Shown here: piece by piece, positions 7,360 to 33,808 of the stretch
Layout: each line of letters starts with the position of its first letter
How positions within the stretch are numbered: position 1 is the stretch's first letter
Assembly (NCBI RefSeq): GCF_011250515.1
Contig: NZ_JAANOP010000005.1
Location: forward strand, 126,877-190,876
Length of the DNA stretch: 64,000 nt
Reading direction: 5' to 3'
Source of the DNA: Aquirufa ecclesiirivi
GTDB taxonomy: Bacteria; Bacteroidota; Bacteroidia; Cytophagales; Spirosomataceae
The notes under the pieces: model-generated
The model's input: only the letters and a program-made list of their open reading frames with translations
The model's database searches: none
What the model was told of the DNA's origin: nothing
Position numbers and translations under genes: made by a program

Positions 7360-8481
7360 TTAAAGTGTTTTAGATTTTTCCAAAATGCGGCGCATGGGAA
7401 CATACTCTCCCTTGATTTTTTGTCCCTGCTTCACCAATTGAATACCTTCTACTAAAACGGTATCTGAAGAAGTAAATCCTTTGACTAAATAAAAGTGCGG
7501 CATCCGAATTTCAGGTATTAGGCTTTTCATTTTCAAAGTACCCGTTTTGTCCTTGACGAAAACATAATTTTTTTCCTGAATTTCGAATACCGCCTTTTGT
7601 GGTATTAACCAGTAACCATTCACCTTTTTTGGCATTTGAACGCGACCAGAAGAACCATGTTTCAACAGTTTTTCTGGGTTATCAAATCGTGCACGAAAGG
7701 CAATATTACCTGTGTTCTTATCAAACTCACCCTCAATCGTTTCCACCTTACCCCCATGAGGGTACAATTCTCCATTGGCTAATAATAATGAAACGGAGGT
7801 ATTGTGCTTAAAGCCTTCTCCCAATTCGGCAAATGCTAAATATTCCTTTTCAGAAACATTGAAATAAGCAAATACATTTTTGGTATCAGACAAGGTGGTG
7901 AGTAAAGTTCCCTCGTCAACTAAGCTACCTGTTTTGAAAGGTAAGCGGTCCACAACTCCATCAAAGGGTGCTCGAATAGAAGAATATTCCACGCGCAATT
8001 GGGCGGCTTTCACATGCGCTTCAGCCTCCTCTTTTTTCGCTTTTAAACCTTCTATTTTTGCTAGAGCGATGGATAATTGATTTTTGGCAATGACATTTCT
8101 GTCCACTAATAATCGCGTATTGATTAACTCCAATTCCTCGGCTTTGATATCCGCCATGGTTTGGTTCAATACGGATTTGGCACGCATCACTTCTGCCAAA
8201 TACTCCAAATTATTAATCGTGAATAATACTTGCCCTTTACGAACCGCTTTTCCCTCATCCACATGTATTTTATCCAAATACCCTTTTACCCGAGCTCGTA
8301 TTTCTACGTTATTGATGGCATTAATATCTGCCACAAACTCTTGTGATATCGTGGTATCCATTTGGATAGGTACACTCACCTCTAGACTGGATATCTCCTG
8401 ACTATTGGTTTCATTTTTTGTACCACATGCTTGTAAAAGGAATATACCCATACAAAACACTAGCTTAGACGCTCGATTCAT
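7360..8481 (-). CDS. RND efflux periplasmic adaptor (membrane fusion protein), lipoprotein
   Basis: Periplasmic adaptor linking the pump and the outer-membrane channel. The N-terminus is a lipoprotein signal with lipobox LLQAC (Cys19). A split biotinyl-lipoyl domain follows (IRARVKGYLDKIHVDEGKAV near 62-81 and IRAPFDGVVDRLPFKTGSLV near 172-191), with an alpha-helical hairpin between the halves (about 95-160), then beta-barrel and membrane-proximal domains. 373 aa, typical of AcrA/MexA. The small secreted-protein gene upstream ends one base before this ATG, so the two are probably co-transcribed. Confidence 0.94.
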   Translation of the reverse strand: MNRASKLVFCMGIFLLQACGTKNETNSQEISSLEVSVPIQMDTTISQEFVADINAINNVEIRARVKGYLDKIHVDEGKAVRKGQVLFTINNLEYLAEVMRAKSVLNQTMADIKAEELELINTRLLVDRNVIAKNQLSIALAKIEGLKAKKEEAEAHVKAAQLRVEYSSIRAPFDGVVDRLPFKTGSLVDEGTLLTTLSDTKNVFAYFNVSEKEYLAFAELGEGFKHNTSVSLLLANGELYPHGGKVETIEGEFDKNTGNIAFRARFDNPEKLLKHGSSGRVQMPKKVNGYWLIPQKAVFEIQEKNYVFVKDKTGTLKMKSLIPEIRMPHFYLVKGFTSSDTVLVEGIQLVKQGQKIKGEYVPMRRILEKSKTL

Positions 8482-30360: not shown

Positions 30361-31425
30361 ATGAAAGACAATTACCTCATCATCATGGCTGGCGGAATAG
30401 GCACTCGCTTTTGGCCAATTAGCAGAAGTGCAAATCCAAAGCAGTTTCACGATGTTTTAGGTGTTGGCAAAACCATGCTTCAACAAACTGCCGAACGTTT
30501 TCAAGGCATTATACCGCAAGAAAATATCTATGTAGTAACCAGCGATGAATTTGCTGGATTGGTGGAGAAACAATTGCCATTTTTAAGTAAAGAGCAAATA
30601 TTAAAGGAACCCCAGCGAAAAAACACCGCTCCTTGTATTGCTTATGCTACCTATAAAATTGCCAAAAAGAATAAAAAGGCAAAGTTCGTGGTAGCACCTG
30701 CTGACCATGTGATTTTAAAAGAAAACGCTTTTCAAGAAAATATTAGAACGGCATTGGAAGTGGCGGAAGAAGGTGTTTTTGTTACTTTAGGTATCATTCC
30801 CACTCGGCCCGATACTGGCTATGGATACATTCAATATGTACCCAATGACAATAAAGCCCAAAAAGTAAAGACATTCACGGAAAAGCCCAATCTGGAATTA
30901 GCACAGGCTTTTTTAGAAAGTGGAGACTACGTTTGGAATGCCGGTATTTTTGTCTTCAAACTTCCAACTTTCAAAAAAGAATTAGAAAAGCATCAATCCC
31001 GAATGGCGGAGCAATTTGAAGAAGGATTAGCGCATTATTATACGCAAGAAGAAGAATCCTTCATCAAAAAAGTATATGCTGTTTGCAAAAACATCTCGAT
31101 GGATGTGGGTATTATGGAGAAAGCTCAGGAAGTCAAGGTTATTCTTTCTGATATCGGTTGGTCAGACTTGGGCACATGGCAATCTTTGTATGAAATCAAT
31201 GAAAAAGATGCGAATAATAATGTCGTAGAAGGCAATGTCATCACATATGATACTCAAAATTGCATCATCAAAACACCTGCTGAAAAATTGGTGATTATTC
31301 AAGGGCTGAAGGGCTTCATCGTGGCCGAACATGGAAATGCCCTGATGATTTGTCCCAAAGACCAAGAACAAGAAGTGAAGAAATTTGTAGAAGAAGCTAC
31401 TGCCCTAGATCCTAAATTTAGTTAG
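30361..31425 (+). CDS. manC: Mannose-1-phosphate guanylyltransferase
   Basis: Forms GDP-mannose from mannose-1-phosphate and GTP for surface polysaccharides and glycolipids. 354 aa, the monofunctional form without the C-terminal phosphomannose isomerase (cupin) domain. Seen: nucleotide-binding loop MAGGIGTRFWPISR at 9-22 (signature G-x-G-T-R-x-W-P); QKQ-like EPQRKNTAPCIAYA near 83; VAPADHVI; FTEKPN near 175; and WNAGIFVFK near 195. It converges with the MerR/B12 regulator, overlapping it by 8 bp. Confidence 0.95.
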   Translation: MKDNYLIIMAGGIGTRFWPISRSANPKQFHDVLGVGKTMLQQTAERFQGIIPQENIYVVTSDEFAGLVEKQLPFLSKEQILKEPQRKNTAPCIAYATYKIAKKNKKAKFVVAPADHVILKENAFQENIRTALEVAEEGVFVTLGIIPTRPDTGYGYIQYVPNDNKAQKVKTFTEKPNLELAQAFLESGDYVWNAGIFVFKLPTFKKELEKHQSRMAEQFEEGLAHYYTQEEESFIKKVYAVCKNISMDVGIMEKAQEVKVILSDIGWSDLGTWQSLYEINEKDANNNVVEGNVITYDTQNCIIKTPAEKLVIIQGLKGFIVAEHGNALMICPKDQEQEVKKFVEEATALDPKFS

Positions 31426-32302
31426 TATTCGCTAACTCAATCAATTCTTGAAAACTACGTAAAACGTGAATCTTTTCAGGAACTTCATGCCCCAAAGCTA
31501 GCAACTGGTATCCCGTTAATAAAATTTTCGAATTTGGAATTCTTTCAACTAACTGTTCCAAATAATCGGGCATGTCGTCGGGATTAGGCTGGGAAGTAAA
31601 GACACTTAAAATATAATCTGGTTGATGAATATCATAAGCCAAAACCAGTTCTTCAAAGGGCAAGGATTGACCCAAATAAATTACCTGATGTTTTCTGGCT
31701 CGCAATATATAATTAGCAAAAAGCAAGCCAATTTCGTGCAGCTCTCCTTCTGGTAAATACAACAGGAATTTTTTGGCAGTGGGCTTATAACTTAAATCTT
31801 GCTGATCGATTGCCGCTATAACTTTTTGACGAATCAAATGACTGATAAAATGCTCTTGTGCTGGTCCTACGGAGCCCGACAACCACAAGGTTCCTAAGCG
31901 CAGCATGAATGGATGTATGATTTGAATCAAATAATCTTCAAATCCATGCTTCTGAATGATATTTTTGGTCAATTGCTGAAACATAGCCTCGTTTAATTCC
32001 AACATGGAAATCGTCAAGGCTTGAATCTGATCTGGAAAATGAAGATTTCCTTCGGATAAACGAAGTAAATTGGCCGAACGCTCACTATCACTCATTTTAG
32101 CAATTTCAGAAATCTTAAAATCTCCTCTGCTTTGTAAAATGGCAATATTTAATACCAACTTTAATTCCTCATCTCCGTAAGTACGAATGTTCGTATCTGT
32201 CCTTTCGGGATTCAGTATCCCATATCTTTGTTCCCAAATCCGTAAGGTATGAGCTTTTATGCCACTAAGATGTTCTAAATCTTTAATTGAATAAACACTC
32301 AT
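31418..32302 (-). CDS. MerR-family regulator with B12-binding domain, CarH/LitR-like
   Basis: A 294-residue predicted transcription regulator. N-terminal MerR helix-turn-helix (YSIKDLEHLSGIKAHTLRIWE, about 4-24, with wing to about 45); a middle helical domain with the CarH-type W140-x9-E150-H151 motif (LWLSGSVGPAQEHF); and a C-terminal cobalamin-binding fold with E187-x-H189-x-x-G192 (Glu in place of the usual Asp) and an LGQSLP loop. In CarH/LitR these features bind adenosylcobalamin, and light breaks the tetramer and relieves repression of carotenoid genes. The carotenoid gene cruF is immediately upstream on the same strand, which supports that role. Family is sure; light sensing is inferred. 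Confidence 0.85.
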   Translation of the reverse strand: MSVYSIKDLEHLSGIKAHTLRIWEQRYGILNPERTDTNIRTYGDEELKLVLNIAILQSRGDFKISEIAKMSDSERSANLLRLSEGNLHFPDQIQALTISMLELNEAMFQQLTKNIIQKHGFEDYLIQIIHPFMLRLGTLWLSGSVGPAQEHFISHLIRQKVIAAIDQQDLSYKPTAKKFLLYLPEGELHEIGLLFANYILRARKHQVIYLGQSLPFEELVLAYDIHQPDYILSVFTSQPNPDDMPDYLEQLVERIPNSKILLTGYQLLALGHEVPEKIHVLRSFQELIELANTN

Positions 32303-32362
32303 ATAATCATATCTATTTTAAATCTAACCTGATAAGTCTGCTAATTGTTTTCATGTTTGGAT

Positions 32363-32995
32363 TTAAGCTTGCAAAAAAATCCAATGTCCCAAGAAAAACA
32401 TGAATTGTAATAAGAGAATCCACCGAAATAAAGACGATTTACTGGTAAGTTCTCCTGATTGGATGACCCAATGAAAAAAGAAACTGACTAGCCACCAAGC
32501 ACCAAAATTTTGAATAGGTACTTGATCTCCGTACCATTGCCAAAAATCAAAATGCATAGCGACTGGTTCAATCAATAAATCCAAGGCCGTCATCAGTCCT
32601 GCACCCAAAGCCGCTCTTCCAATCTTACCACCCACATTCCATTCCTCAACCACGGCACTAGAACCCAACAATAAGATAAGCCAATTAATACCAATGGTAA
32701 TGGGTACCTCCAAAACTTTAAAACCCAAAGTTTCTCCATAATGATAAACTCCAAAAATCTTACCTGTTCGAACACCTACTACTTCTAAAAACCAAGCTGC
32801 CACTACAATTCCGCCTAAGGTTAGATAAGCCGACAAACTGGGCTTGGGAAAATAAAACAAGCAGATGAAACCCGTAAACCATAAAGTCAATGGAACTAAA
32901 GAAACAAATAAAGCCTGAGTGGCAGGCAAGTTCATGCCTACTAAACCTGCCGCATATAAAATGATAAGAAACCTTTTTAAAAATACTCCTGACAT
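32363..32995 (-). CDS. cruF: Carotenoid biosynthesis protein, CruF-like (bisanhydrobacterioruberin hydratase family)
   Basis: A 210-residue polytopic membrane protein of the DUF422/CruF family, which hydrates the psi end of gamma-carotene or related C40/C50 carotenoids (1',2'-hydratase). Family features seen: WFLEVVGVRTGKIFGVYHYG, then LGFKVLEVPITIGINW, LMTALDLLIEPVAMHFDFWQW and the closing FGAWWLVSFFFHW. About six hydrophobic helices. The MerR/B12 regulator follows after 60 bp. Other carotenoid genes (crtB, crtI) are outside the window. Confidence 0.88.
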   Translation of the reverse strand: MSGVFLKRFLIILYAAGLVGMNLPATQALFVSLVPLTLWFTGFICLFYFPKPSLSAYLTLGGIVVAAWFLEVVGVRTGKIFGVYHYGETLGFKVLEVPITIGINWLILLLGSSAVVEEWNVGGKIGRAALGAGLMTALDLLIEPVAMHFDFWQWYGDQVPIQNFGAWWLVSFFFHWVIQSGELTSKSSLFRWILLLQFMFFLGHWIFLQA

Positions 32996-33019: not shown

Positions 33020-33640
33020 CTAGGCCCATTCATCGGGTCTTTCTAAAACAAAGCCATCTTCCTTATGCACATGCAAAGGAAATTGATTTTCTACTAATTT
33101 CTTTCTTCCTATCATTTGAAATGCTCTCGCTACAGCCACAACAGACTCATTTCTTCTTAAAGGAGGGAAAAATACAACAACTGACTTATCCAAAAAATGT
33201 TCATTTACACTTTGTATACAAGGAACAAAATCACTATCACCAGAGACCACAATAGCTATATCATATTGATCCTGAAAGGCATCCATCAATAAATGAGTTG
33301 CCAAATTAACATCCGTCATTTTTTCATTGGGGATAATCCAGCTATTCCCGCACTTTCTACAATCCGTAAATTTAGCTTGATAGGACCCATAAATTAAAGA
33401 TATTCCCGTAGATTCTAATGCTTCCAAATACGTCGTTTGGCGTTTTTGCTTTGGGGGATTGTGGGTAATCCTACTGGTAAAGTATTTAATCTCCACCAAT
33501 TCTTGATTAGATCGCAAAAAACTACGAATAAGCTTATCTACATTCAACCACTTACAATTCCTAAAGCCCGCATCCATCATCCCAAAATATAAATTGGAAC
33601 CATCGATATATGCCTTAACCCGATATTTTTTATCCTTCAT
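33020..33640 (-). CDS. NYN domain protein (LabA/DUF88-like putative nuclease)
   Basis: A 206-residue PIN-like NYN domain protein. Acidic active-site positions are visible: AYIDGSNLYFGM (Asp near 12), the EKMTDVNLATHLLMDAF segment with the central Asp, and VSGDSDFVPCIQSV near 120-132. A CRKCGNSW stretch adds two Cys that may form a small metal knuckle with nearby residues. Such proteins are predicted RNases; the target is unknown. ATG 33640 is chosen because homologues start at this lysine-rich segment, although an ATG at 33697 lies inside a hairpin. It ends 24 bp before cruF begins. Confidence 0.8.
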   Translation of the reverse strand: MKDKKYRVKAYIDGSNLYFGMMDAGFRNCKWLNVDKLIRSFLRSNQELVEIKYFTSRITHNPPKQKRQTTYLEALESTGISLIYGSYQAKFTDCRKCGNSWIIPNEKMTDVNLATHLLMDAFQDQYDIAIVVSGDSDFVPCIQSVNEHFLDKSVVVFFPPLRRNESVVAVARAFQMIGRKKLVENQFPLHVHKEDGFVLERPDEWA

Positions 33641-33684
33641 GAACTTATTTCTTCGATGAATTGTATCTTTGTACAAGTACTTCT

Positions 33685-33729
33685 CCAAAGATAGCATCTT
33701 TGGAATGATGCCCCACTCAGGTGGGGCAT
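33685..33729. other. Two tandem hairpins between the NYN gene and the CE15-like gene
   Basis: A perfect 8-bp inverted repeat CCAAAGAT/ATCTTTGG (33685-33703, loop AGC) is followed by a GC-rich hairpin ATGCCCCAC/GTGGGGCAT (33708-33729, loop TCAG) with a T-rich tail on the plus strand. The first repeat contains a minus-strand TATCTTTG (33686-33693) that could be the -7 box of the NYN gene. The second resembles a terminator, yet no gene on the plus strand ends here. Confidence 0.5.
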
Positions 33730-33808
33730 TTACTTTTTATAAGCTATGCTTCGCCATGACTAATTAAAGGAAATATTTGAGTAATATCGGTGAATGAATC
33801 ACATCCCG

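Follow-up and report, generated by a model that had tools for sequence, protein, structure and literature searches.

In Aquirufa ecclesiirivi, a member of the Spirosomataceae, a MerR-family regulator gene lies directly beside a carotenoid gene, raising the question of whether its product is a light sensor of the CarH type, i.e., a repressor that uses adenosylcobalamin (AdoCbl), and, if so, which genes it controls. By the window we mean the whole 64,000-nucleotide stretch of DNA that was analysed, whose nearest relatives are named Aquirufa strains (82-94% identity). The genes concerned are:

31418..32302, minus strand, regulator gene merR (CarH/LitR-type; open reading frame, 294 aa).
32363..32995, minus strand, cruF-family carotenoid hydratase gene (open reading frame, 210 aa; Pfam Caroten_synth, PF04240, over cut-off).
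33020..33697, minus strand, NYN-domain gene (Pfam NYN, 2.8e-16).

A first-pass annotation, made from the sequence alone, had placed cruF 5' of the regulator on the same strand, and the reading-frame coordinates bear this out: the order is NYN-cruF-merR, with gaps of 24 bp between NYN and cruF and 60 bp between cruF and merR. A profile search returned Caroten_synth for cruF at 1.8e-24; the NCBIfam CruF models match this protein under their cut-offs (TIGR03460, 65 bits vs 155). The three genes probably constitute one operon with NYN first, in which cruF would be cotranscribed with merR. The NYN gene beside the cruF-merR pair is kept in the genus and was seen in 10 related loci, and a manC-like gene converges on merR with an 8 bp overlap. 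Between the divergent NYN and esterase-like genes (window 33698-33793) lies a GC-rich hairpin, gccccacctgagtggggc, with no T run after it, which is possibly an attenuation or protein site.

The regulator divides into three domains:

Residues 4-72, MerR helix-turn-helix (Pfam MerR_1, PF13411, 1.8e-14; PF00376, 1.4e-8).
Residues about 90-166, four-helix cobalamin cap (B12-binding_2, PF02607, 4.7e-7).
Residues about 175-294, Rossmann cobalamin domain (B12-binding, PF02310, 7.7e-4).

These matches agree with the earlier reading of an intact MerR helix-turn-helix joined to a B12-binding domain, PF02607 scoring over its cut-off and PF02310 under its own. The best solved relative found by PDB sequence search was Thermus thermophilus CarH (TtCarH; 3whp/5c8d, E about 1e-19). 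When an AlphaFold2 model of the regulator (36 sequences, mean pLDDT 89.4) was compared with known structures using VIA-align, CtMerR scored Z 19.2, TtCarH 18-19, photocobilins 18.3 and MetH 15.3, the whole cobalamin domain aligning to TtCarH and CtMerR at Z 18-19. The modelled fold is closest to light-sensing cobalamin domains, ahead of MetH. Since the NCBIfam CarH equivalog model NF052513 gives the regulator 98.7 bits against a cut-off of 400, we regard it as a member of a divergent lineage and not as a CarH equivalog; probable light sensors of this type are widespread in Bacteroidota.

The residues expected to hold the cofactor are encoded as follows:

31850..31894, minus strand, codons of G137xxW140 ... 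E150-H151 (W-x9-EH, upper-face signature; alignment with TtCarH).
31727..31747, minus strand, codons of G186-E187-x-H189-x-x-G192, the lower axial cobalt ligand loop (alignment with TtCarH).
31658..31672, minus strand, codons of G211xxxP215, final element of the light-receptor signature (PMC11796333).

In an alignment with CarH of T. thermophilus HB8, W140/E150/H151 correspond to W131/E141/H142, G186/E187/H189/G192 to G174/E175/H177/G180, and G211/P215 to G199/P203. W140, E150, H151, E187, H189 and G192 therefore sit exactly where the first-pass annotation had put them, each with its counterpart in TtCarH. The published light-receptor signature, GxxW, EH, GxxH and GxxxP (PMC11796333), is complete in the regulator as G137xxW140, E150H151, G186xxH189 and G211xxxP215. 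Two reservations raised earlier did not survive this comparison. The Glu of ExHxxG had been considered a departure from the usual residue, yet TtCarH itself has E175 and Glu is the CarH norm. The second B12 loop had been cited as a source of doubt; its string, LLTGYQLLALG, is real and sits at about residues 261-271, not 258-265 as claimed, and its G264, which does not vary among 109 relatives, corresponds to the second Gly in the GG pair of TtCarH.

As for the cofactor itself, the genome encodes a PduO-type adenosyltransferase (over cut-off), a MetH-like protein and, downstream of a cobalamin riboswitch, a TonB receptor whose best model is a B12 receptor (BtuB-like). These supply genes, together with the residue equivalence, the full signature and the modelled fold, all support the proposal of a CarH-type cobalamin light sensor, as predicted from sequence and structure modelling.

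One position that had been overlooked is L141, at the place of TtCarH His132, which acts as upper ligand once TtCarH is in its light state; bis-His ligation is thus impossible in the regulator. In the 109 relatives the residue is mostly Leu, Gln or Val, with a single His, so the family, if light-sensing, must use another light state. H132A TtCarH was mostly still tetrameric after light in one study, an earlier report having disagreed (PMC10442372); given this retention and L141, the mechanism of light output must differ from that of TtCarH. The Leu, the near absence of His among relatives and the H132A tetramer could also mean that the regulator merely senses B12 availability, repressing with AdoCbl and having no useful light response for lack of the His132 switch. 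However, CtMerR carries Arg at this position and still photolyses AdoCbl, and other light-active members likewise lack the His (PMC11796333). Moreover, the regulator and its predicted operator mark specifically light-related genes (carotenoid, photolyase and proteorhodopsin, see below), and we consider such a B12-availability sensor quite unlikely.

Among the 109 relatives, W140, E150 and E187 are each invariant (109/109), H151 is found in 83 and H189 in 82. The 27 without H189 (Saprospiraceae-type, L054-L099) carry Gln there and, in nearly all cases, Asn, Ser, Ala or Tyr at H151 and Ser or Thr at P215. Because the first three residues never vary and H151/H189/P215 are kept or lost almost as a unit, this conservation is not due to chance. 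The His-less regulators form one branch (SH-aLRT 100), and every sampled member outside this one clade retains both H151 and H189. The loss was thus a single event, and the locus counts of the two groups are therefore not independent. As neighbours of merR at the 82 His-intact loci we found cruF, directly adjacent, in 45, a related ECF sigma gene in 20, a photolyase/cryptochrome-type gene in 14 and crtI-crtB in 6, and at the 27 His-less loci none of these bar one distant ECF match, all counts being lower bounds since many retrieved loci span only 3-4 kb. Most genes for His-less regulators have a conserved gene on the opposite side, its product about 976 aa long.

That W140, E150 and E187 persist even in the 27 members lacking both histidines indicates that part of the pocket motif is structural, and B12-independent paralogues are known; the regulator might accordingly be cobalamin-independent, like myxobacterial CarA or class II LitR, its pocket residues serving structure only. 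We find this very improbable: the diagnostic H151, H189 and P215 are intact in the window protein and were lost as a block in one clade only, the two histidines being retained elsewhere, including in all 30 regulators from rhodopsin-bearing genomes described below.

Regarding the genes controlled, phytoene synthase is encoded on a contig other than the regulator's, in an operon preceded by an inverted repeat (dyad):

L118:4820-7816, minus strand, ECF sigma-crtI-crtB operon (ECF start probably GTG at 7768).
L118 7816-7785, minus strand, candidate operator TTGTTTAA-N16-TTAAACAA, overlapping the promoter, its right half abutting TTTG.
L118 7822-7793, minus strand, putative promoter TTTG-N18-TAAATTTG of the ECF-crtI-crtB operon.

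This is the sole perfect copy of the dyad in the genome. The first-pass annotation had suggested looking for a regulator dyad upstream of cruF and of crtB/crtI; the search yielded this candidate and nothing at cruF. As neither dyads nor half-site pairs that we found credible lie beside merR-cruF or NYN in the window, autoregulation and direct control of cruF are unsupported here. The second-best dyad of the genome (one mismatch) lies by or within a UvrD/RecB-like reading frame and was taken as chance. Two-mismatch matches were treated as background, since at up to three mismatches a reversed control pattern gave 138 matches vs 86 for the dyad. Throughout the genus (L121-L145) an ATG or GTG shortly 3' of the dyad is the start codon of the ECF sigma gene; a longer, mechanically called ECF frame extends across the operator and is unlikely to be real.

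The dyad at the ECF promoter is kept across the genus as its flanks diverge, and in some species both arms change in step. When all loci were searched for dyads with any spacer from 6 to 25, N16 accounted for 86, N17 for 9 and no other spacing for more than 3, a tally that is not the unbiased count because some loci had been retrieved for the ECF gene or the pattern. In the unbiased count, taken within 1.5 kb of merR, N16/17 dyads turned up at 26 of 82 His-intact loci (43 dyads) and at none of the 27 His-less loci, and shuffles gave none. The full TAnnTTTG was present in 39 of 59 oriented dyads whose right half abuts TTTG. Paired dyads often lie 41-44 bp apart, providing four half-sites, which would suit a tetramer. 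Each half-site, TTAAACAA included, holds TAAACA, in agreement with the TnnACA core seen in known CarH operators. In those operators (TtCarH/BmCarH type), 11-bp repeats, nnnnTnnACAn, follow one another in the same orientation over the promoter (PMC9304148), unlike the inverted N16 arrangement of the operator predicted here.

Across the order, exact dyads were found in 95 of 194 genomes, and the reversed control pattern in 5. Only three dyad-bearing genomes had no regulator match (G082, G124 and G186, all at most 82% complete), a contrast inflated by the small size of many regulator-free genomes. In genomes of loci picked by regulator type, an exact dyad was present in 19 of 20 with a His-intact regulator vs 5 of 23 with a His-less one. 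In four of these five, a perfect dyad sits at the promoter of an ECF or crtI gene:

L276:9887; L277:4383; L279:85; L281:4333, dyads in His-less genomes, ECF or crtI promoter.

They may be bound either by the His-less protein or by another regulator, perhaps one encoded at a distance; regulator-like genes were not found near them within the retrieved 7-20 kb. The His-less clade, from which the operator and the neighbouring light-related genes are for the most part gone, offers a natural comparison for the His-intact regulators.

The link between regulator and operator is correlational, drawn from sequence comparison. The dyad could instead serve another regulator of the same pathway, with the MerR protein controlling something else, e.g., only cruF; its absence beside merR-cruF in this genome and its persistence in a few His-less genomes are in line with such an arrangement. 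Against it, the dyad has the CarH-type half-site core, co-occurs with the regulator across the order and, in many other genera, stands directly between merR and the ECF gene, or before merR. We hold the involvement of a different regulator to be unlikely.

Elsewhere among relatives, the genes with an exact dyad in front of them include ECF, merR, crtI, ECF-photolyase and folE-type genes. Two Cytophagales genomes have one before a rhodopsin gene, with lycopene cyclase next in one of the two. Independently of the dyad, we collected 30 rhodopsin loci across Bacteroidia by protein match and scanned 300 bp upstream of each. With no more than one mismatch allowed, 14 of 30 had an N16/17 dyad (shuffle mean 0.02); several loci come from one genus, and by eye the 14 represent about 8 of 17 genera. 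At most two mismatches gave 20 of 30 (shuffle mean 0.4). The loci concerned are:

L171:1600-3030; L174:686-1432; L191-L220 upstream regions, dyads before proteorhodopsin genes.

In each of the 30 genomes there is a gene for a homologue of the window protein, often beside ECF, crtI, crtB or photolyase genes, and these homologues all retain H151 and H189 (30/30). These patterns suggest that proteorhodopsin may be under light/B12 control in many Bacteroidia; a protein search of the window's own genome gave no rhodopsin match. Exact dyads also stand before secreted or lipoprotein genes, named by eye as DUF4397-like or fasciclin-like, in several Cytophagales:

L163:1593-2324; L164:703-1440; L169:3-1451; L172:1548-3032, DUF4397-/fasciclin-like loci with dyad.

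Taken together, with the residues, the fold, the cofactor supply genes, the conservation of the dyad and its co-occurrence with the regulator all observed, we put at roughly three in four the probability that the regulator is a Bacteroidota-lineage CarH/LitR-type photoreceptor-repressor acting via the ECF-crtI-crtB dyad. AdoCbl would be held between the Rossmann domain and the four-helix cap, H189 serving as its lower ligand and W140/E150/H151 surrounding the adenosyl group. Without light, the holo-oligomer would occupy TTGTTTAA-N16-TTAAACAA over the ECF-crtI-crtB start and promoter, blocking transcription. On illumination the Co-C bond would break and the grip on DNA loosen, allowing production of the ECF sigma factor, of phytoene synthase and of the desaturase, after which the sigma factor may turn on more carotenoid genes. 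With Leu at residue 141, a bis-His light state like that of TtCarH is impossible, and the state adopted probably resembles that of CtMerR. Cofactor binding, dark repression, light release and the regulator's action on this dyad are the steps we infer. More broadly, it seems to us an even bet that this photoreceptor lineage and the TTGTTTAA-N16/17-TTAAACAA dyad form the common light switch of Bacteroidota, with a non-bis-His light state, governing carotenoids (often via ECF), photolyase, pterin synthesis and proteorhodopsin.

CarH/LitR cobalamin photoreceptor-regulators are a known kind. In the open papers searched, among them papers on Bacteroidota, CarH and proteorhodopsin, we found no report of a Bacteroidota lineage without His132, of the His-less clade, of an inverted-dyad operator fused to a Bacteroidota promoter, or of the ECF, photolyase and proteorhodopsin associations. 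A Chryseobacterium has been described that makes carotenoids in response to light; the authors found no car or lit operon in its genome and suggested a new regulator (PMC7064467). For light sensing in the carotenoid synthesis of non-phototrophic Bacteroidota, a candidate protein family and a specific DNA site can now be named. As the site precedes many proteorhodopsin genes, it also predicts which proteorhodopsins would be light- and B12-controlled and, if true, would link the use of light by aquatic bacteria to their supply of vitamin B12.

Compared with known systems, the regulator resembles TtCarH (LitR; 5c8d/5c8e/3whp) in domain order, fold, the W/E/H/H and ExHxxG residues and its place beside carotenoid genes. 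It differs in sequence (about 28-30% identity), in having Leu for His132, in its candidate inverted N16 dyad in place of three tandem 11-bp repeats, and in a predicted target that encodes an ECF sigma factor. CtMerR (Chloracidobacterium thermophilum, 8jbs/8jbt) is the best structural match (Z 19), although the two sequences are just 14% identical across the aligned domain; both keep the signature residues, and neither has His at the TtCarH 132 position (Arg in CtMerR, Leu here). Myxobacterial CarA and class II LitR, which are B12-independent, find their parallel in the His-less Saprospiraceae clade, whereas the window protein keeps both diagnostic histidines. In actinobacteria, the MerR repressor LitR controls LitS, an ECF sigma factor for crt genes. 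The system here is alike in pairing the regulator with an ECF sigma factor and crt genes, although it belongs to another phylum and has the regulator and sigma genes on different contigs. Most likely, the regulator represses in the dark and is released by light, its first target being the ECF sigma factor, as in LitR-LitS.
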